From a virus, in IMG/VR virus record IMGVR_UViG_3300007509_000060, positions 1 to 24,747 of that record: DNA of 24,747 nucleotides, one strand, 5' to 3'. Below, piece by piece: positions 279-9,183 of this stretch. The position numbers and the translations under genes were made by a program. The notes below the pieces were generated by a model. The model was not told where the DNA came from and searched no databases. It saw only the letters and a list, made by a program, of their open reading frames with translations. Every line of letters starts with the position of its first letter. Position 1 is the stretch's first letter.

Positions 279-2141
279 CTATTTCGCTTCACTATAATTA
301 TCACCAAGGTCTGCTTCACAAGCCACTGGTAAATCTTTCGCCCAACTTGGGGGCTTAGACATTTCATCAATCATGAATGCCATTGCTTCATCTGCTTCTT
401 CCTCTTTAACCACAATGATAATCTCATCATGGACTTGGAAAGATACATGGTATCGCTGTCCTATACGTACCATCTGCTCTGCAACTACATTCCTAGCAAG
501 GGCTTGGACTATATTCTCCACTACCTTGCCACCGTATATACGTGTCCAGTTATTACCAGCAACGCCTTCACCACTCGTATGCTTTCTAAACACACGAGAG
601 TCAGCAAGATAAGAGAACCCACTCGAACTTGCTTTCAATGCAGGGTAATGAATACGTAATCCGTTCGGCATCAATATACCTTCGGAGTCGTAAGACAGAA
701 TGTCGTTAATCTGCCCACTACCACCTGCTAACATGCCTGTAAGAACCGTGCCACATCTATTCCAAAGTGCGACAATCCTATGGTTCTTTTGTCTGTATAA
801 ATTTACTATTCGCTGTGCTTCAAACTCATCAACATCAACGGATAGTCCACCCATACCTAGTGCTAAGGTATCTTTAAACTTAGCATGACCCATGCCATAA
901 CCTAGACCTAGTATACATGTTTTACCAACGAACCTTTTAACTTTATCAGTCTTTTTTACTTCCATTCCATATACATCTGAGGCGAACTCACTATACACAT
1001 CACGCCCCTCTCTAAAGGCATCAAGTAAATCATCTTGCCCTGCTACATACGCTGTCATTCGTGCTTCAATCTGTGATGAATCACAAGCAATCATCTTGTA
1101 ACCCAATGGTACAGTCAACGCTTCACGGATAGCACCGTTGCGAGGTAGGTTTTGTAGGTTTAACTTGTCGCCACCAGAGAACCTACCAGTATGCGCTCCA
1201 TAATACTTGAGCATAATAGGCAAGTATCCACGCTTAGAAGTTTCAATCAACCGTTGCGTTCTTGTTTCCTCTATGGTAGACTTGGTACCAAGTCTTGCCT
1301 TAACGAGGCTACGCACTTGAGGGTTATCATGTTCAAGTAAGTTTGTAAATGCTTTATCAGTCTTGGCGAATGCAAATGCAGTCTTGCCAGTACGCATACT
1401 CACCTTAGTTGGAACCTCAACACCTAATGACCCCAGCAACTTAGCAAACATATCATTACTCATCAACACTTTCTTTATCTGTGCCTCTGTGAATTGACCC
1501 ATTGATAGGTCATTAATTAGGTCTGTCTTGGCTTGCTTAACACTAACAATATGTTTCTCTAATACATCAGTGTCAAGTACCACTGTTGGTTCGGTGTACA
1601 TACGCAGGGTCTGGTCGATAATCATCAACTCATGTGGTGGAAACCCTTTGCGTAGTTCATTGAATAACTTATAAGTTAACTCAACATCTTGGATACAGTA
1701 ATCAGCGAAGTCTTGCATCTCGCTTTCACTAAAGTCTACACGCCTTTTACCTAGTGTGTTCTCCACCTCTGCACCCTTCTCACCTATACCATAGTAATCT
1801 GCTAGGGCTTTAAGCGAACTACCCTCAGTCATCTGGTGCTTAGGCTTCGACATACACATGGTATCGAACCAGAACTTAGGCTTGATGTCATACAACCATG
1901 ATAGTATAGCACCATCGAAGTAGGTGTTATGGCATAAGATAGCCTTATCAGTATAGTCAAGGCTGTTGAGAAATCCGCCAACATCTTCCCCACTATACCA
2001 GTCAGTTGGGTTATCATTTACCTTAACACCTACACCTATCACTTCGAACTTATCGCTACGAATATACTCTTCAGTAGTCATCTTAGATAGCGAGAACTTC
2101 TTATCCCAATAGGTTTCAAAGTCGATGGTTACTATATCCAT
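279..2141 (-). CDS. Family A DNA polymerase with 3'-5' exonuclease
   Basis: This 620-aa protein is the replicative polymerase. The N-terminal DEDD exonuclease domain shows Exo I (D7, E9 in TIDFET), Exo II (N72, D76 in HNTYFDG) and Exo III (Y148, D152). The polymerase domain shows HTGRFSGG near 317, motif A (D354 in CDSSQIEAR), motif B/O-helix (R403, K407, Y415, G416) and motif C (H571-D572-E573). There is no 5'-nuclease domain, as is usual for phage PolA. The residue equivalent to E. coli Phe762 is Leu411. The gene is tightly linked to an upstream HTH protein gene (2-nt gap) and sits near the end of the - strand operon. All catalytic residues are present, so it is probably active. Confidence 0.97.
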   Translation of the reverse strand: MDIVTIDFETYWDKKFSLSKMTTEEYIRSDKFEVIGVGVKVNDNPTDWYSGEDVGGFLNSLDYTDKAILCHNTYFDGAILSWLYDIKPKFWFDTMCMSKPKHQMTEGSSLKALADYYGIGEKGAEVENTLGKRRVDFSESEMQDFADYCIQDVELTYKLFNELRKGFPPHELMIIDQTLRMYTEPTVVLDTDVLEKHIVSVKQAKTDLINDLSMGQFTEAQIKKVLMSNDMFAKLLGSLGVEVPTKVSMRTGKTAFAFAKTDKAFTNLLEHDNPQVRSLVKARLGTKSTIEETRTQRLIETSKRGYLPIMLKYYGAHTGRFSGGDKLNLQNLPRNGAIREALTVPLGYKMIACDSSQIEARMTAYVAGQDDLLDAFREGRDVYSEFASDVYGMEVKKTDKVKRFVGKTCILGLGYGMGHAKFKDTLALGMGGLSVDVDEFEAQRIVNLYRQKNHRIVALWNRCGTVLTGMLAGGSGQINDILSYDSEGILMPNGLRIHYPALKASSSGFSYLADSRVFRKHTSGEGVAGNNWTRIYGGKVVENIVQALARNVVAEQMVRIGQRYHVSFQVHDEIIIVVKEEEADEAMAFMIDEMSKPPSWAKDLPVACEADLGDNYSEAK

Positions 2142-2143
2142 GG

Positions 2144-2512
2144 TTATTCAAACTCCTGCTTCAATGCGTTATATACTTTGCGTGCTTCATCCATAGTCAT
2201 CTCAATTGTGCCTTGTTGCAGTTGAATATAAACTTTTATCTCTAGTATCGTAGGTTTCCTGTCAATAACTTTAGACTTGGTTGTCCTCTTTGCTGCTGCA
2301 GGTTTCTTTTTCGCTAACGCATCAGTAATGGCATGCTTCATTGCCTTATTGATTGGTTTCTGTTTAGGCATAGTTAACCCTGCCGCCGACTTAGTTACAT
2401 ACACATACTTCTGTCTAACACCTAATGCACTAGCAACTTGTGCTGCTGTCTTGTTAGGGTTTGCTTTAACATATGCTATTATTTTTTCTCTCTTAGATGT
2501 TCCACGCATCAT
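2144..2512 (-). CDS. Putative HTH DNA-binding protein with basic linker
   Basis: This 122-aa protein starts at tandem ATG codons (2512/2509) with AGGAG upstream, overlapping the previous stop by 4 nt. Residues about 5-45 (KREKIIAYVKANPNKTAAQV followed by ASALGVRQKYVY) look like a winged or simple helix-turn-helix of the type that reads 'next helix = ALGV'. Residues about 58-82 form a Lys/Ala-rich linker (AKKKPAAAKRTTKSK), typical of nucleic-acid-binding tails. The C-terminus (TIEMTMDEARKVYNAL) may be a small dimerisation or partner-binding helix. Its position directly before the polymerase suggests a replication or DNA-condensing role, but that is inference. Confidence 0.75.
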   Translation of the reverse strand: MMRGTSKREKIIAYVKANPNKTAAQVASALGVRQKYVYVTKSAAGLTMPKQKPINKAMKHAITDALAKKKPAAAKRTTKSKVIDRKPTILEIKVYIQLQQGTIEMTMDEARKVYNALKQEFE

Positions 2513-2946
2513 TTTTCTCCTGTTAAAGTAAATACATCAACCCCTTGTCCACAACTTGGACTATATTGGTTGGCTATATTTACTGCTTGTTCTGCACTAG
2601 CACCCATTGCTAATGCTCCATAGGCAAGGTCTTGCCCACTACCAAAAGCACAAGCATTACGCCCATGCTCAATAGGTATCGGCGACTGTTCATATCGCTT
2701 CAACCCATGTTCGTCTACTACTATAAAGTGGCACCAGTAATCTCCCTTCTGTATGTTTGGAAATGCTTTATAGTAAGCACCTGATTTATACCACTCTCGC
2801 ATTTCAAGTATAGTCCCTAGAGTGCCTGTTCCTGTTAGCAGTTCATCTCCATGTATCCATACTTTATCTATGCGGTGTTGGATATTACCACTCGCTGATG
2901 CCTTATCAGTAGCAAGAGTCTTACCGTCCCAAACTACTACGCTCAT
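2509..2946 (-). CDS. Proteasome/HslV-like Ntn hydrolase
   Basis: This 145-aa protein has the layout of phage HslV-like proteins: MSVVVWDGKTLATDK, then RIDKVW, a GTGTLG loop, a central VVDEHG strand, and the C-terminal AFGSGQDLAYGALAMGAS helix start. In the proteasome fold the catalytic set is N-terminal Thr1, Asp17 and Lys33. Here the equivalents appear to be Ser2 (exposed if Met1 is removed), Asp14 and Lys28, so an N-terminal serine nucleophile is possible. It could be an active peptidase or an inactive structural relative. It overlaps both neighbours by 4 nt. The target in infection is unknown. Confidence 0.8.
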   Translation of the reverse strand: MSVVVWDGKTLATDKASASGNIQHRIDKVWIHGDELLTGTGTLGTILEMREWYKSGAYYKAFPNIQKGDYWCHFIVVDEHGLKRYEQSPIPIEHGRNACAFGSGQDLAYGALAMGASAEQAVNIANQYSPSCGQGVDVFTLTGEK

Positions 2947-3785
2947 GAGTGCAACTCCGACTTCTTAAATACTCCAAACTGTCTGCGTAGTTCTACACTA
3001 TATGTATTACATATCTTATCAGTTATTGTAATTATGTCTTTAGGTGAAGGGCGTGACCAATTCCAACTATATTCTGACCTATATGTTCTATTGATGCCAG
3101 TTAATAGTTCTTGTGGGAACTCACCATCTCTAATACTTGTGAATAACAACTCTTTATAATCACCATGTGACCAGTCGGGTGTGAACCTAAGGTTATCTCC
3201 TTGCTCAATGCTATCAGAGATACCTTCAAACACATTCATCTTGGCTCTAACTTTAATACCTTTCTTAAACTCTCGCAATGCTCTCAACCACACCTTTCGT
3301 TTCTCTGGTATTGCTATGAGTTTGTCATCGGGTCTACGGTTAAGGCACTTATGCGTTGCCAAGTCAAAGGTAATCCCTTGAAAGTATTCGGGTGCTTCTT
3401 TTTTCAACCAATCCCACCAGTTGTAGAACCCTTGATGGTCGGGGTACTCAGTTTTGTTCGCATCTATTTCTCTAACATGGGCAAGGCGATACCTACCCTT
3501 AGCAATTCGTAGGGTAGCAAATGGTATTGCTCTATGCATTGAGCCAGTTAATGTGCAGGAGTTATGCCACACTTCCTCGGGTGTCGCAGTAAACTCCACT
3601 GTGTTATTAGGTTTGAACCTACATAGTGTGGTGTTCCATGTCTTAACTACATAATCATCACCATCTTTATGTATCCTAGCCCAAGAGCGCAGTGGCTTTC
3701 CCTTGTCGGGAAATCTCGCTCGTTCAAAGAATGCTTTAACGCTTTTATAATCTGTAACTGTTGCTTCATTTAACCAATGTTCCAT
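2943..3785 (-). CDS. Conserved phage protein, function unknown
   Basis: This 280-aa soluble, basic and Trp-rich protein has no signal peptide or membrane segment. Recognisable stretches include WHNSCTLTGSMHRAIPFATL near the middle and the charged PDDKLIAIPEKRKVWLRALR. I do not recognise a catalytic motif. The stop overlaps the downstream HslV-like gene start by 4 nt, so the two are probably translated together. The start is preceded by AGGAG (TAAGGAGAGGTATATGG). Function unknown. Confidence 0.75.
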   Translation of the reverse strand: MEHWLNEATVTDYKSVKAFFERARFPDKGKPLRSWARIHKDGDDYVVKTWNTTLCRFKPNNTVEFTATPEEVWHNSCTLTGSMHRAIPFATLRIAKGRYRLAHVREIDANKTEYPDHQGFYNWWDWLKKEAPEYFQGITFDLATHKCLNRRPDDKLIAIPEKRKVWLRALREFKKGIKVRAKMNVFEGISDSIEQGDNLRFTPDWSHGDYKELLFTSIRDGEFPQELLTGINRTYRSEYSWNWSRPSPKDIITITDKICNTYSVELRRQFGVFKKSELHS

Positions 3786-3795
3786 ATACCTCTCC

Positions 3796-4458
3796 TTATT
3801 TAGTTAATTTATTAAGTGTTACTGTCGCTGTTAATGAGTTAACATCGAGGTCACCAAGTTCTTTAACACTACCTTGCTTGCGTTTGGTAACCGTCAGATG
3901 CCTCTCTTGGTATTCCTTAGGGACTAAATCCCACAGTGCTGGGAATACTCTAAGTGCTGGAGATAAGGTTGAATAGGTGTTCAGTATCTGCCTAACACCT
4001 GCAACAAATGTATCTTGCTTATCTCTTATTGCTTGTTGTTTAGTAACCCAATCTTTATACTCTGTTTGAATAGTAGCAAAGCGGGGAGTGCCATAAGTAA
4101 GGCGTATATTACGCCATGATCTATCCCAATCATCAAACTGTGAGCCGTGTGGCATACGGTGAGGGGTGTTAAATGTAAAGTCTAAGTCAGGCACATTCCA
4201 TGCTCTTTTATCTTCAAGACTATCATCTACATTTCTGAACCCACCAAATGATATCTTTGATACTTCTTCCATATACTTCTTAGGTAGGGCATTTATTTTA
4301 TCTCTAATATCTTTTGGGAACACAGTGTTGTATAAATACTCTGCGTTCCATGTAGTTGGGGTATCTTTATATGCATCACTTAGTTCTTTATGAAACATGT
4401 CTGATGCGTTCTTTAAAATTGCTTCTTTAAGAACTTCACTAAATCTTACTGTTGCCAT
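3796..4458 (-). CDS. Conserved phage protein, function unknown
   Basis: This 220-aa protein has a soluble N-terminal part (MATVRFSEVLKEAIL) and a C-terminal helical region with WDLVPKEYQERHLTVTKRKQ, a pattern seen in uncharacterised phage proteins. It starts 1 nt after the upstream gene's stop with GGAG upstream of the ATG. No enzyme motif is visible. It lies between the 185-aa and 280-aa unknowns in the same transcript. Confidence 0.75.
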   Translation of the reverse strand: MATVRFSEVLKEAILKNASDMFHKELSDAYKDTPTTWNAEYLYNTVFPKDIRDKINALPKKYMEEVSKISFGGFRNVDDSLEDKRAWNVPDLDFTFNTPHRMPHGSQFDDWDRSWRNIRLTYGTPRFATIQTEYKDWVTKQQAIRDKQDTFVAGVRQILNTYSTLSPALRVFPALWDLVPKEYQERHLTVTKRKQGSVKELGDLDVNSLTATVTLNKLTK

Positions 4459-4459
4459 A

Positions 4460-5017
4460 TTACTCTCCTATATCGTTTGCGATAAGTGCTTCCTTCACTT
4501 GTTCATCACTGGTTAAATGTTCATACTCTTGGTCTAACTTTCTATACAACTGCCTCATGTGTCCTCTAAGTACATCAGCAGCGTCGTTATACATCTCATC
4601 TATCTCTGGTTGTAGCACCCTATCAAGTGCAGTAACTACCTCTTGGTGGAACTCAGTAGGTGTATCCATAAACCGTAGGTCATAGTAGTTATCGTTGTAT
4701 AGGTCTATGTCTACACTGTTCTCGTGGTAGTAGTGTCCACCATGTGTTAGTTTAAACTCCACTTGTCCGCCCTCCTCAAGGAACTCTTCCACAATAGGGT
4801 ATTCATTCATATCCATCAACTTAGTTACATCTTCTACATACCCCTCGAAACAAGCACCATCACCTTGACTCCAGAACCCACTGAACATGATGTTATCAAC
4901 GACTACACCTTGCTTCTTCATATCGTTAATAAAGTCTTCATATATAAACTCATACCAATGGTCGTAGATATTTATCTCTCTATGTTTGTCGATTAGTTCA
5001 GGGGTTATCTTAGTCAT
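4460..5017 (-). CDS. Conserved acidic phage protein (FSGFWSQGDGACFEG type)
   Basis: This 185-aa acidic protein carries FSGFWSQGDGACFEG at about residues 45-59, a strongly conserved stretch in a family of uncharacterised proteins found across tailed phages. An HGGHYYHENSVDI segment follows near 92. It overlaps the upstream VWA-protein gene by 8 nt. No catalytic assignment is possible, although the clustered His, Asp and Glu could bind metal. Function unknown, family membership likely. Confidence 0.8.
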   Translation of the reverse strand: MTKITPELIDKHREINIYDHWYEFIYEDFINDMKKQGVVVDNIMFSGFWSQGDGACFEGYVEDVTKLMDMNEYPIVEEFLEEGGQVEFKLTHGGHYYHENSVDIDLYNDNYYDLRFMDTPTEFHQEVVTALDRVLQPEIDEMYNDAADVLRGHMRQLYRKLDQEYEHLTSDEQVKEALIANDIGE

Positions 5018-6140
5018 TCATCACCACCACTTCACCAAACGGTGCGTCAGTGCTGTTCTTATCAGTAGTTACCCACAGTGTAGGAAATGGTGGCTCATCA
5101 CCAAAGTCATTACACCATAGGTCTGTTAAGAATACACATGCTACTGGTTCAATAGCCTCATCAGCGATGTATTTAAACACAGGGCTGAACGCAGTTCCAC
5201 CGCCACCATGGGGTTCGATATGCAGTTCATCATCTCGTGTAAACTTATCATACTGAGATATTGAAGTATCAAAGTATAAGACATGAATAACACTAGGCTT
5301 ACTATCTTCTTTAATCATGGTTATCTCTGCTGCGAACTGATTTATCTCATCTTGTCCGATAGAACCTGAACAATCCACTGCTACAACGAGTTCGCCCATT
5401 GCTTCACCACTACTACTTGGTAGATACATATCTTGAGATAAGAAGCGTCTGTTAGGTCTAGCCCAAGAGCGAGTGTCATCTTTACACTTCTCAACAAAGC
5501 GTTGCAACACTTCACGCCAGTCAACTTTAGGTTTAAGTACAGTTCCAACAAAGCGTTCTACTCCTGCACTCATCTTACCCATCATCTTCGCAGCCTGTGC
5601 TGCTTGTGCTACCTTAACTTTCCACTCTGCTGACTTCTGTTCCTGTTCAGCAGGGCTACCTTCAGCATCAAGACACTCATCAAGTGGGTCACCTATACCA
5701 CCAACAGAGCCTATGCTATCTTTGTTTTCAGTTTCAGTAGGTAGTATCTTATATATACCATCTGTTGTGCCACCACCTTGTTGCCATATGTCATCATCAT
5801 ACAGCCCACCTTGTGGCATTGAACCTATCTTTTCATCAACAAGTAGTTGGTTAATAACATAGTCGCCTGCACTATTCCATTTACGGATATCCTTTTCGCC
5901 TCTTCTGAACGGGTGTTCAAGCATAGGATGCATGCATTCATGAGCGACAAGGAACTTAAGTTCTTCATCAGTTAAGTTCTCACAAAACTCAGGGTTAAAC
6001 TTAACCATACTACCATTAGTCGCAGCAGTTGGAACTTCCTCTGTCACCTCAAAGGGCATGTTCAGTGCTATGTTCCCAATGAATGGGTGTTCTAACACTA
6101 ATGATGTTTTTGCCTTACTCAGGCGTTTGCTTATCTCCAT
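5010..6140 (-). CDS. VWA-like protein with HExxH metallopeptidase motif (DUF2201 type)
   Basis: I place the start at ATG 6140 (MEISKRLSK), which has AGGAGG 6 nt upstream; an in-frame ATG 11 codons earlier would overlap the neighbouring gene and lacks such a site. The product is 376 aa. The N-terminal part has HECMH (67-71), a zincin HExxH helix, followed by H76 and a WNSAGDYVIN segment typical of this family. The C-terminal part is VWA-like with a full metal-ion adhesion site: D256-x-S258-x-S260, T316 in GGGGTAF and D340 in FLTD. Proteins of this build pair with MoxR-type AAA ATPases, and one is encoded upstream at 8191-9183. The substrate is unknown. Confidence 0.9.
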   Translation of the reverse strand: MEISKRLSKAKTSLVLEHPFIGNIALNMPFEVTEEVPTAATNGSMVKFNPEFCENLTDEELKFLVAHECMHPMLEHPFRRGEKDIRKWNSAGDYVINQLLVDEKIGSMPQGGLYDDDIWQQGGGTTDGIYKILPTETENKDSIGSVGGIGDPLDECLDAEGSPAEQEQKSAEWKVKVAQAAQAAKMMGKMSAGVERFVGTVLKPKVDWREVLQRFVEKCKDDTRSWARPNRRFLSQDMYLPSSSGEAMGELVVAVDCSGSIGQDEINQFAAEITMIKEDSKPSVIHVLYFDTSISQYDKFTRDDELHIEPHGGGGTAFSPVFKYIADEAIEPVACVFLTDLWCNDFGDEPPFPTLWVTTDKNSTDAPFGEVVVMND

Positions 6141-6336
6141 TGTAATCCTCCTCTTCACGGATTCGTTTAACACAATGCTCTATGTTCATAAGTGAAGCCA
6201 TTAAAACTGACCTCGGCATATGGACAAGTAGCGTTTCAATGAGCATACCTGTTGGCAACTCATGCATATTGTCATACCACACCATTAGTGCAGTAGGATA
6301 CTCAGCCTTTAGTTTTTTTAGTTCGTCGTCTGTCAT
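6115..6336 (-). CDS. Small phage protein (73 aa)
   Basis: The ORF starts MTDDELKKLKAEYPTALMVW and ends DKQTPE. A weak AGGA lies 9 nt before the ATG. It overlaps the upstream 48-codon gene by 35 nt and the downstream VWA gene by 26 nt, both in other frames, so translation is probably coupled. The LLVHMPRSVLMASLM stretch could be an amphipathic helix. Function unknown. Confidence 0.6.
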   Translation of the reverse strand: MTDDELKKLKAEYPTALMVWYDNMHELPTGMLIETLLVHMPRSVLMASLMNIEHCVKRIREEEDYNGDKQTPE

Positions 6337-6448
6337 TGATAATTATCCTATTGTAATCATTCCAATATATCAATATGTAAGCCATCCATAAGGCTGAACC
6401 TACCATCAATACATCAAATAAATCAATCGTTGCTAACATCTCTCCCAT
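6302..6448 (-). CDS. 48-aa single-span membrane protein
   Basis: The start is ATG 6448 (MGEMLATIDLF), with GGAGGG 5 nt upstream. A longer frame to 6520 has no ribosome site there. Residues about 10-29 (LFDVLMVGSALWMAYILIYW) form one predicted membrane helix, followed by a strongly basic tail (NDRRRTKKTKG), so the C-terminus is expected in the cytoplasm. It overlaps its neighbours on both sides. Function unknown. Confidence 0.65.
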   Translation of the reverse strand: MGEMLATIDLFDVLMVGSALWMAYILIYWNDYNRIIINDRRRTKKTKG

Positions 6449-6620
6449 TTTTACCCTCCACAAGTAACTCATTACACATCTGTATCGCACTATCTGATAC
6501 AGCCCACACCGTATTATCACTATCTTTAGTAGACCTACGAATCTGTTCTAGCAAAGTCTTAATCCCTGCCACTTTACACTTACATTCATCGAATGTATGG
6601 TATCCAACTTTATCAGCCAT
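6423..6620 (-). CDS. Small soluble phage protein (65 aa)
   Basis: ATG 6620 is preceded by GAGGAGG at 6 nt, which decides the start over a longer upstream frame. The product MADKVGYHTFDECKCKVAGI... has a CKC pair and a third Cys at about 49. No domain is recognised. It overlaps the upstream gene by 8 nt and the downstream membrane protein by 26 nt. Confidence 0.65.
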   Translation of the reverse strand: MADKVGYHTFDECKCKVAGIKTLLEQIRRSTKDSDNTVWAVSDSAIQMCNELLVEGKNGRDVSND

Positions 6621-6807
6621 AATATTCCTCCTCTTTAAATGGCAATGGCGTGCCATTATCATCAACAAATTCCTTACCTATATGGTAAGTCCCCTTCATT
6701 CTTACTGACGCTTCTAAAGCATCTTGTTTATCAAAGAAGTTGTGGATTGTTAGTCCTGATTCACAGTCAGTAACAAAGTATCTAACCCTAGGTGCATCAT
6801 TCATCAT
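6613..6807 (-). CDS. Small phage protein (64 aa)
   Basis: The start is one of two adjacent ATGs (6807 or 6804), with AAGGA about 5 nt upstream. A TTG just before them is also in frame but less likely. The product has RVRYFVTDCESGLTIHNFFD and later GTYHIGKEFVDDNGT, which looks like a small beta-sheet domain. It overlaps the upstream stop by 11 nt. Function unknown. Confidence 0.6.
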   Translation of the reverse strand: MMNDAPRVRYFVTDCESGLTIHNFFDKQDALEASVRMKGTYHIGKEFVDDNGTPLPFKEEEYYG

Positions 6808-7009
6808 CAATATCCTTATCTACTTCTTTAATTATTAAATACACAGCATCATCTAAATCATCTTTATAGTCTGTGTTCAGTAACGCAACAACCTCAAGCC
6901 ATCTCTTCTGGTTCTGTGGGTTATCTTTACGCCTTGTAGCCCCGAGATAATCCTCATACTCCCAAGGTCGTGGTGTATATGTTCTCATTCGTGGTGGTTT
7001 AGCCATCAT
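6797..7009 (-). CDS. Small phage protein (70 aa)
   Basis: The ORF starts at tandem ATGs (7009/7006) with GAGGA upstream. The product has a basic N-terminal half (MMAKPPRMRTYTPRPWEY, then RRKDNPQNQKRW) and an acidic C-terminal end (KDDLDDAVYLIIKEVDKDID). It is the first gene downstream of a 139-nt hairpin-containing gap, so its group of small genes may be separately controlled. Function unknown. Confidence 0.6.
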   Translation of the reverse strand: MMAKPPRMRTYTPRPWEYEDYLGATRRKDNPQNQKRWLEVVALLNTDYKDDLDDAVYLIIKEVDKDIDDE

Positions 7010-7033
7010 AAAATCCTCAATTAGTTAATAGGG

Positions 7034-7120
7034 GGTTGCTTGTGCATACGATGGCAACCACACCGTCTATATTTAATACTCTACCTCATACATATGAATT
7101 TCATGAGGTGGAAGGTAGAG
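7034..7120 (-). promoter_or_regulatory. Two hairpins in the intergenic leader
   Basis: In the 139-nt gap between the 281-aa gene and the small-gene cluster, 7079-7089 can pair with 7103-7109 and 7117-7120 (ACCTCAT/ATGAGGT plus CTCT/AGAG). A separate pair GGTTGC 7034-7039 / GCAACC 7054-7059 forms a second hairpin. Neither is followed by a U-run on the - strand, so they are more likely processing or readthrough-control structures than terminators. I found no convincing promoter here. Confidence 0.35.
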
Positions 7121-7148
7121 CACAGTAATGCACTTACTGAAAAGGGAG

Positions 7149-7994
7149 TCACCCCATGAAAGCTTTCATTCTATCCATAATCTCTTTCGCTTCCTTGCCC
7201 TTACTTTCCCTAACCACAGGGTTATGTCTTAACACCTCAGGGTGCAAGAGCAACGAACCCTCAACCTCTTGTCGTAATGATTCAAGGTTAGGGTCATCAG
7301 CAAAGTTAAGTCGTGGCAACAGCGAACACAACTCTCTCGTATTCTCCACCATGGTATCTCTAAAGATTGCCTTGGGGTCTGCCAACTTCTCACTCATATG
7401 CTTCACCCTATCATACAGTCTTTGCCAGATGTCTGCCATAGCAATTTCACTCGCTTCAGTAACTCTTCTCTCAACATCTTGTTGTATGTTACTCAACTCA
7501 TCACTGGTTATCTCAACCCTAAAATCATCACTAGGAACAGGGAATACTGCCATATCCATACGAAATTTATCGTGTATACTGTCGTCACATGGGTAGTCAC
7601 TTTCGTTATACAGTCCATTAGGTAGTAGTCGTTTGGCGTCCTCCTTTAGTCTGCTGTAATTACTAATAAACTCATTAACAAGTGACTCCCACTCCGCTTT
7701 CTCATTACGAAACTCTGTCATAAACTCCAAGTAGTTCGCACTAGGTAGCATCTGAGTCCCCTCAATACCCCACGGTAATGTGTTGTTGTAATACTTCTGC
7801 CTAATCGCAGTCGCTTTCTTATGCACCCTATCAAGGTAATCATTCATAGGCAGTAGGCTCTTATTAAACCTACCAGCACCCATAGATGCACCATGTTGAT
7901 GGAGTATATCTTTAGTAACCTTACGGTCATACTTCCTTGCTGTCCACTGACTAATGTTAAGTTGCACTAGCAGTGCTTTATCTGTTAACTTCAT
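7149..7994 (-). CDS. DUF3150-like helical protein associated with MoxR/VWA genes
   Basis: This 281-aa, mostly helical protein has LLVQLNISQWTARKYDRKV at the N-terminus, then LPWGIEGTQMLPSANYLEF and LLPNGLYNESDYP. I associate this pattern with the DUF3150-type proteins of phages that also carry MoxR ATPases and VWA proteins; the exact family name needs a profile search. Its start overlaps the upstream gene by 4 nt and has GAGGAGGG upstream. No catalytic motif is visible. A helical adaptor of the ATPase/VWA pair is a reasonable inference. Confidence 0.7.
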   Translation of the reverse strand: MKLTDKALLVQLNISQWTARKYDRKVTKDILHQHGASMGAGRFNKSLLPMNDYLDRVHKKATAIRQKYYNNTLPWGIEGTQMLPSANYLEFMTEFRNEKAEWESLVNEFISNYSRLKEDAKRLLPNGLYNESDYPCDDSIHDKFRMDMAVFPVPSDDFRVEITSDELSNIQQDVERRVTEASEIAMADIWQRLYDRVKHMSEKLADPKAIFRDTMVENTRELCSLLPRLNFADDPNLESLRQEVEGSLLLHPEVLRHNPVVRESKGKEAKEIMDRMKAFMG

Positions 7995-8191
7995 GTTATC
8001 TGTCCCTCCTCTCTTGGGTTAATAGTTGCTGATGTATACTCTACCTTGATGGCATCACCCTCATCTGGGTTAACCTCCAGTGCTTGGCACACCTCTCGCC
8101 ACACCTTATCGTTGGTAAAGTCCTCATGATACAAGTCCAATGTTCTCTGCTCCTCCTCTCCGTCCCAGCAGTGGTTAATTACCATGCTCAT
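7991..8191 (-). CDS. Small acidic phage protein (66 aa)
   Basis: The ORF begins MSMVINHCWDGEEEQRTLDL and shares one base with the stop of the upstream ATPase gene (TGATG), so it is probably made by translational reinitiation. It is acidic and has no recognised motif. The position between the ATPase and the DUF3150-like gene suggests a function with them, but this is inference. Confidence 0.65.
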   Translation of the reverse strand: MSMVINHCWDGEEEQRTLDLYHEDFTNDKVWREVCQALEVNPDEGDAIKVEYTSATINPREEGQIT

Positions 8192-9183
8192 CAGAATAAG
8201 ATTTCTTGATGCTTAACTGCCCAGTCTGTAAACGCCTTGGTACTCGCCAAGTCTGGGTTCTTCCTCGCTGCATATGACACTGACAACACACTAAACTCCG
8301 GTGGCATACGCTCTGCATAAGTACACACTCTACCAAAGTTATCCTCTGTTGCCCTCTCTGCTATCGCCCCACTCAACGCATACAGCGTCGCAGGGTCAGT
8401 CGGCACATCAGCAGTTGATGGGTTAAGTATGATGTTATCTGGGTTAGGTAGTTTGCGATATATCTTAACAAACCCTACAAACTCCGCTGCTGCACCCTCT
8501 CCAACAGCCCCTTTAAAGCACTCATACTCTGCCTCTGGTGGCACTGTCCCAAGCACATCACTCACACCATCAACCCAACTTCTAGGCGTAGCATTCTGCT
8601 CCCTCTGTGGGTCGAAGTCATGCAGTAAGTTCGGTCTAAACCTTATGAACGACACCACCTCTGGTGCAACTTCATGCTCTATCGCCCAGTTGCTCCAGTC
8701 ATCGAGGTGTGTATCAAGGTCAACTACTGTCTCTCTGTTACGCAGATGACTCAACACTCGGTTAGCCCCTGCTCTATCCTTCTGCCTGTTGCCAGTGCTT
8801 ATAACCTGCCAACCATCAGGGAGTTTATACCCATGTAATGTTCTCGCTTGACAGATGTTAGCCAATACTTTCTGCAAGTCTGCACCTGCTTGGTTCCTAT
8901 CATCGAACAACAGTATACCTTTATCAGGTGCTTTACCCTCCTGCGGAAACCACTCTGGTAAGCGGTATGTTAGGCTATCTTCATTGCTCTTATCAGGGTA
9001 AAGTATCCCAAAGTCCTCAACTAACATCGTCGGCATATGCAACTCTCTGCACTCTACTCCAAGTTCCTCCGCTGCTTCATGCACCAGTGTGGTCTTACCA
9101 CCTCCCGGACTACCCTCTATACACAATGTTCTCTGCTGTGGGAATAACGCCTTAACCGTTTCTTTCATCAATGTCGCTCTCAT
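8191..9183 (-). CDS. MoxR-type AAA+ ATPase
   Basis: This 330-aa protein has Walker A GSPGGGKT (24-31), a Walker B region GILLFDD (89-95), sensor-1 N132 in STGN, and arginines in the LRNR segment (148, 150) placed where arginine fingers are expected. The second Walker B acidic residue is Asp95 rather than the usual Glu. MoxR ATPases act with VWA-domain proteins in assembling or remodelling protein complexes, and the VWA partner candidate lies downstream at 5010-6140 in the same operon. AGGAG lies 7 nt before the ATG. Whether the pair helps virion assembly or acts on host proteins is unknown. Confidence 0.92.
   Translation of the reverse strand: MRATLMKETVKALFPQQRTLCIEGSPGGGKTTLVHEAAEELGVECRELHMPTMLVEDFGILYPDKSNEDSLTYRLPEWFPQEGKAPDKGILLFDDRNQAGADLQKVLANICQARTLHGYKLPDGWQVISTGNRQKDRAGANRVLSHLRNRETVVDLDTHLDDWSNWAIEHEVAPEVVSFIRFRPNLLHDFDPQREQNATPRSWVDGVSDVLGTVPPEAEYECFKGAVGEGAAAEFVGFVKIYRKLPNPDNIILNPSTADVPTDPATLYALSGAIAERATEDNFGRVCTYAERMPPEFSVLSVSYAARKNPDLASTKAFTDWAVKHQEILF

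Follow-up and report, generated by a model that had tools for sequence, protein, structure and literature searches.

The viral record IMGVR_UViG_3300007509_000060, from a marine-type phage and analysed here over its whole length of 24,747 bp (the window), encodes on its minus strand a set of three genes, whose products are a AAA+ ATPase of candidate MoxR type, a mostly helical protein related to DUF3150, and a protein in which a zincin metallopeptidase domain is fused to a von Willebrand factor A (VWA) domain (Table 1). The three proteins are likely to be parts of one machine, and there is roughly an even chance that it would be an ATP-driven remodelling or proteolysis machine that serves the replication or recombination of mobile DNA. 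A sequence-only reading had placed three open reading frames (ORFs) at these positions on one strand, which was confirmed, and had suggested a remodelling or protease system acting on host or virion proteins. That broad class remains the best supported, given the conserved Walker A, zincin and metal ion-dependent adhesion site (MIDAS) motifs and the conserved gene order; the suggested targets fared less well, as the gene neighbourhood favours the DNA side.

A scan of viral contigs yielded 219 relatives of the helical gene. At all 88 related viral loci that hold the three genes, these lie on one strand in the order MoxR, DUF3150, VWA, and both intergenic gaps are shorter than 120 bases at 53 of them. 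The 88 loci are not 88 independent events because they come mostly from close relatives, with some contigs fetched twice, and clustering of the helical protein at 85% identity leaves 21 groups. The synteny is far more than chance would produce and, together with dN/dS values of 0.06-0.15 for the trio (window against seven relatives), it upholds the earlier view of the genes as one set or operon. The small genes between the members are mostly peculiar to this sub-lineage, and the trio is nearly contiguous in most relatives. Independent cases include cyanophage MinM2 and Desulfobacterales, with the same order, and Tannerella, where the order is permuted (ATPase, VWA, DUF3150). The trio of the cyanophages MinM2 and Pag-Yong1, with a DUF3150 protein 28% identical to that of the window, belongs to another phage group and has a primase-helicase nearby rather than a polymerase. 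A 7.4-kb contig in an actinobacterium metagenome-assembled genome also carries the phage trio, at 63% identity; it is probably of viral origin and ended up in a bacterial bin.

The helical protein, whose start is preceded by a good Shine-Dalgarno sequence, had no significant family in direct scans of Pfam, PHROGs and NCBIfam; its PF11348 score (E 0.07, 12.8 bits) lies under the gathering cut-off of 24.9 bits. Homologues from Tannerella and Desulfobacterales genomes, 30-32% identical to it, exceed that cut-off. When a profile built from phage sequences only was compared by hhalign with an independent profile of plasmid and element DUF3150 proteins, the two matched at 98% (E 2e-14, 247 columns), against 0.1-0.2% for unrelated pairs. 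By this profile-profile comparison the protein is a distant DUF3150 homologue, as the sequence-only reading had supposed. The name DUF3150-related is used because its own Pfam score is under the cut-off, with homology established through intermediates and profiles. An AlphaFold2 (AF2) model is mostly helical (pLDDT 84, pTM 0.54), and its best viral structure match in BFVD is a phage DUF3150 protein (E 3e-18). A fold search of the PDB with this model returned nothing at E 0.001, and a second PDB comparison gave values of the kind seen for helical bundles, with Z up to 9.3, which are not probative.

The zincin-VWA protein, a homologue of N4 gp25, bears out the earlier description of an HECMH motif with a complete VWA metal site. 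Both of its Pfam domains, DUF2201_N (E 2e-45, 155.8 bits) and DUF2201 (E 1e-28, 100.2 bits), are over their cut-offs. The zincin motif HECMHPMLEH, of the form HExxHxxxxH, occupies residues 67-76, and the MIDAS residues are D256, S258, S260, T316 and D340. Residues H67, E68, H71, H76, N89, D93, N97, D256, S258, S260 and T316 do not vary among 26 diverse homologues, which take in N4 gp25, phage G and Thermus phage phiFa, and at least 90% of these keep D340. A start at the GTG at 6173 would lengthen the ORF; the ATG at 6140 has a strong Shine-Dalgarno sequence, GAGGAGG. The AF2 model has a VWA fold at residues 247-376 that matches VWA/I-domains with Z about 12 and 2.6 A across about 130 residues, in a comparison that barely probed the N-terminal part; NorQD and MDN1-MIDAS are among the VWA fold matches. 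A profile search gave a weak match (E 0.01) to MJ1213 (selecase, a small metallopeptidase). The name "HNH endonuclease", given to phrog_1314 and to N4 gp25 in RefSeq, was rejected: DUF2201 domains are found instead, and no HNH family matches up to E 1. The name is a misannotation that has propagated through many phage records, the family having only zincin and VWA (DUF2201) domains.

The ATPase contains Walker A (GSPGGGKT) and Walker B (ILLFDD) motifs, a sensor-1 N132, R150 and a sensor-2-like R201. Residues P26, G29, K30, D94, N132, R150 and R201 are invariant among 14 diverse phage homologues, and the arginines include a putative finger. Its Pfam AAA match (E 3.6e-4) is just over the cut-off, at 21.4 against 21.2 bits, and that to AAA_5 (E 3.6e-4) just under it, at 21.0 against 22 bits; the curated MoxR model PF07726 (AAA_3) scores E 0.048 and 14.0 bits against a cut-off of 27. 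Among solved structures, midasin AAA modules are closest to it in sequence (E 1e-24). The protein is built like a MoxR protein that is paired with a VWA protein, and the label MoxR-type stands as a candidate subfamily placement. In the window, and in all members of its clade that show the motif, the catalytic Glu of Walker B is replaced by Asp (FDD, residues 94-95), so that the ATPase departs from the hhhhDE pattern; Walker B reads DE in the eight other phages examined.

The same three components occur in conjugative elements. Canonical DUF3150 was found on 1172 plasmid records, 984 of them predicted to be conjugative, and all five plasmids or elements that were opened have the order AAA ATPase, DUF3150, VWA: R997 (SXT/R391 family), a Vibrio plasmid, pQBR55, pGSUB1 and an Azospirillum plasmid. 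In four of the five, ssb, bet or recT, and exo lie directly upstream, and the trio is often followed by radC or primase genes. Elements of Desulfobacterota have the trio at eight of nine high-scoring DUF3150 loci, the ninth being cut by an insertion, with homologues of exo, ERF, bet or ssb near most of these trios and radC or primase near some. Seven weaker, divergent Desulfobacterota loci lack the trio and lie mostly near an ATPase of about 470 amino acids (AAA type, Ycf46-like by eye); one of them also has genes for ssb, a PD-(D/E)XK nuclease and a UvrD helicase. The phage and plasmid ATPase profiles are related (97%, E 2e-11, against 0.1-0.2% for unrelated pairs), and HExxH and VWA motifs are present in the plasmid third protein, which is CobT-like and longer. 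The window and the SXT/R391 elements and MOBH plasmids have three components in the same order, of which the ATPase and the DUF3150 protein are homologous. Compared with the module of SXT/IncC type, the window matches in order and strand and the VWA protein is only weakly alike. In SXT, a RecA-independent recombination system is encoded by an operon that begins at s089 and whose promoter SetCD binds and activates (PMC4344509).

Pairs of the ATPase and the VWA protein are more widespread. By tblastn, 705 phage records contain the ATPase and 667 the VWA protein, and in the annotated phage loci that were opened most pairs adjoin genes for polymerase, helicase, primase, nucleotide metabolism (dCTP deaminase, thymidylate synthase) or rIIA/B. 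N4 gp24 and gp25 are a homologous pair, a core pair of Schitoviridae with the same order as in the window and near replication and nucleotide genes; N4 differs in its canonical Walker B (DE, against DD in the window). According to PMC4193335, gp24 and gp25 are core genes of N4-like phages with no assigned function, transcribed in N4 as middle genes. The sequence-only reading had noted that such proteins act together in cells and that their role in phages is little understood. The pair itself was already known from N4 and jumbo phages, and the trio is not confined to phages, as conjugative elements have it too, within a recombination module.

Characterised systems of similar composition (RavA-ViaA, NorQ-NorD, CbbQ-CbbO and midasin) have a AAA+ ring that is steered by a MIDAS-bearing VWA subunit, and the trio shares this combination. 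To our knowledge none of them has an N-terminal zincin domain, and their targets are known. By analogy, the three proteins may form a physical complex with divided roles and proteolytic activity. The MoxR-type ATPase would assemble into the customary AAA+ ring, and the VWA domain, by way of its MIDAS metal, would couple this ring to a partner or target. The DUF3150-related protein would be a third subunit, acting as adaptor or platform, and the zincin domain would cut a protein once the ring has unfolded or released it. Such a machine would act on the DNA side of infection, in replication or recombination of incoming mobile DNA. A DNA-side target is favoured because the trio lies in replication or recombination operons of unrelated mobile elements; from gene location, such a role is an evenly balanced proposition. 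In the window the minus strand is the early and replication block and the plus strand the head and packaging block (terminase, portal, major capsid). Between 10187 and 279 the minus strand carries 17 closely packed genes, with just two gaps above 20 bases, and the last gene of this operon encodes a family-A DNA polymerase, so that trio and polymerase lie in one operon. A more specific version, quite improbable and drawn by analogy with eukaryotic p97/Spartan, is a "roadblock protease" whose AAA+ ring would pull at proteins stuck tightly or covalently on replicating or incoming DNA while the VWA-tethered zincin cuts them; phages and conjugative elements would share such a machine because both replicate foreign DNA through bound proteins.

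Several observations weigh against one machine with a role on the DNA side. Proximity to replication genes is weak functional evidence, and no homologues of ssb, bet or exo were found among the ORFs of the window, whereas the SXT/R391 and MOBH trio sits in an ssb-bet-exo module. Deleting bet, exo, s067, s068 and s070 in SXT lowered transfer by at most 10-fold (PMC2791158); exo is s066 (PMC3118119), and s067 would be the SXT ATPase from the gene order after exo. The Asp in Walker B could mean slow hydrolysis. The phage and plasmid VWA proteins are only weakly alike by hhalign (71%, over the VWA part only) and belong to different Pfam families, DUF2201 and CobT respectively, so that one VWA partner may have replaced another. 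In N4 and many other phages the pair is present and a DUF3150 gene is not detectable. The pair of PBECO4, a clear exception to the neighbourhoods described above, lies beside virion genes, and the virion proteome of phAPEC6 includes the 49.5-kDa ATPase gp265c (PMC7247149), which may correspond to the PBECO4 MoxR gene, judging by its size and a nearby thymidylate synthase.

These last two points speak for a role in virion assembly, in which a chaperone-cochaperone pair with a processing protease would mature head or tail proteins. Such a role was proposed in 2021, with reference to the archaeal virus ATV, for the pair of MoxR and metallopeptidase-vWA proteins encoded by group 2.2 jumbo phages, which has the same two-protein architecture and for which the available portions of that paper describe no DUF3150 partner (PMC7824862). 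For the trio it seems unlikely. In the window the genes are in the polymerase operon on the strand opposite to the head genes, and conjugative plasmids carry the trio though they have no virion. In N4 the pair belongs to the middle genes, and its homologues are absent from the virion proteins of RPP1 and RLP1 listed in the available part of PMC4193335.

It is also conceivable, if similarly doubtful, that the machine is a host-directed or counter-defence protease that unfolds and cuts host proteins of defence, nucleoid or transcription and so aids the establishment of incoming DNA. Phages and conjugative elements, which share the trio, both face host defences, the pair is close to rIIA/rIIB in N4-like phages, and the third, helical protein could serve as the adaptor for targets. 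However, strong conservation across many hosts speaks against a narrow host target, and the phage proteins match no known defence components in PADLOC, a library of defence rather than counter-defence systems. A reading of the trio as a defence system was rejected on the same result.

Insertion of a metal or cofactor, driven by AAA+ and VWA subunits as in the cobalto- and magnesium chelatases (CobS/CobT, BchI/BchD), is very improbable. Plasmid homologues are sometimes annotated as CobS/CobT (PMC4036041) and match the CobS and CobT models weakly, but they remain far below the NCBI equivalog cut-offs (95.6 against 558 and 38.9 against 759 bits), and the window proteins have no CobS/CobT match at 0.01. 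The annotations of the plasmid loci that were opened include no CobN-like subunit, and the zincin motif is conserved.

The remaining genes of the operon are included in Table 1. The HslV-like gene shares the operon with the AAA+ ATPase and is found at about 37 related loci; its M-[S/T]-V start is consistent with an N-terminal nucleophile hydrolase. As a peptidase partner of the ATPase within the trio it was rejected, and it is excluded from the trio because it is present at only 36-37 loci. The Nmad5-like gene is kept downstream of the trio at 80 loci and hints at modified phage DNA. The 280-amino-acid protein, with no family match in Pfam, PHROGs or NCBIfam, is kept at 76 related loci. The 66-amino-acid ORF had no homologue among the fetched relatives at 1e-4. 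The small ORFs between the DUF3150-related and VWA genes occur in the nearest relatives only, but those at 6115-6336 and 6613-6810 are slightly more widespread. A promoter scan gave sites no more numerous than in shuffled sequence, and megablast found no near-identical phage genome.

Table 1. Features of the minus-strand operon in the window (aa, amino acids; matches with E-values)
Feature	Position	Strand	Match or remark
MoxR/AAA_5-type AAA+ ATPase (candidate placement), 330 aa	8191..9183	-	phrog_1297 3e-71; AAA, AAA_5 3.6e-4
66-aa ORF overlapping ATPase and DUF3150-related genes	7991..8191	-	overlaps of 1 and 4 bases
Mostly helical protein related to DUF3150, 281 aa, one of the trio	7149..7994	-	PF11348 0.07; hhalign
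Small ORFs between DUF3150-related and VWA genes	6115..7009 (6797-7009, 6613-6810, 6423-6668, 6115-6336)	-	
Zincin metallopeptidase domain fused to VWA domain, 376 aa, N4 gp25 homologue	5010..6140	-	DUF2201_N, DUF2201
Operon neighbours downstream of the trio	2509..5017	-	the four genes in the next rows
phrog_5162 gene	4460-5017	-	
Nmad5-like (nucleotide-modification associated domain)	3796-4458	-	9e-5, under cut-off
Protein without assigned family, 280 aa	2943-3785	-	between Nmad5-like gene and polymerase
HslV-like protein	2509-2946	-	phrog_1040, 4e-24; starts M-[S/T]-V
Family-A DNA polymerase with 3'-5' exonuclease	279..2141	-	DNA_pol_A 8e-32, exo 4e-6

The components and the ATPase/VWA pair are known already. 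The literature searched does not mention DUF3150 and holds no description of the trio, with its DUF3150 link, as common to phages and conjugative elements, although absence there is not absence in print. The work also corrects the wrong name of "HNH endonuclease" that many phage records bear. The trio probably constitutes a single machine that different kinds of mobile DNA share, and to regard the sets of phages and of conjugative elements as versions of one machine, with the DUF3150 protein as its third part, would join two open questions.

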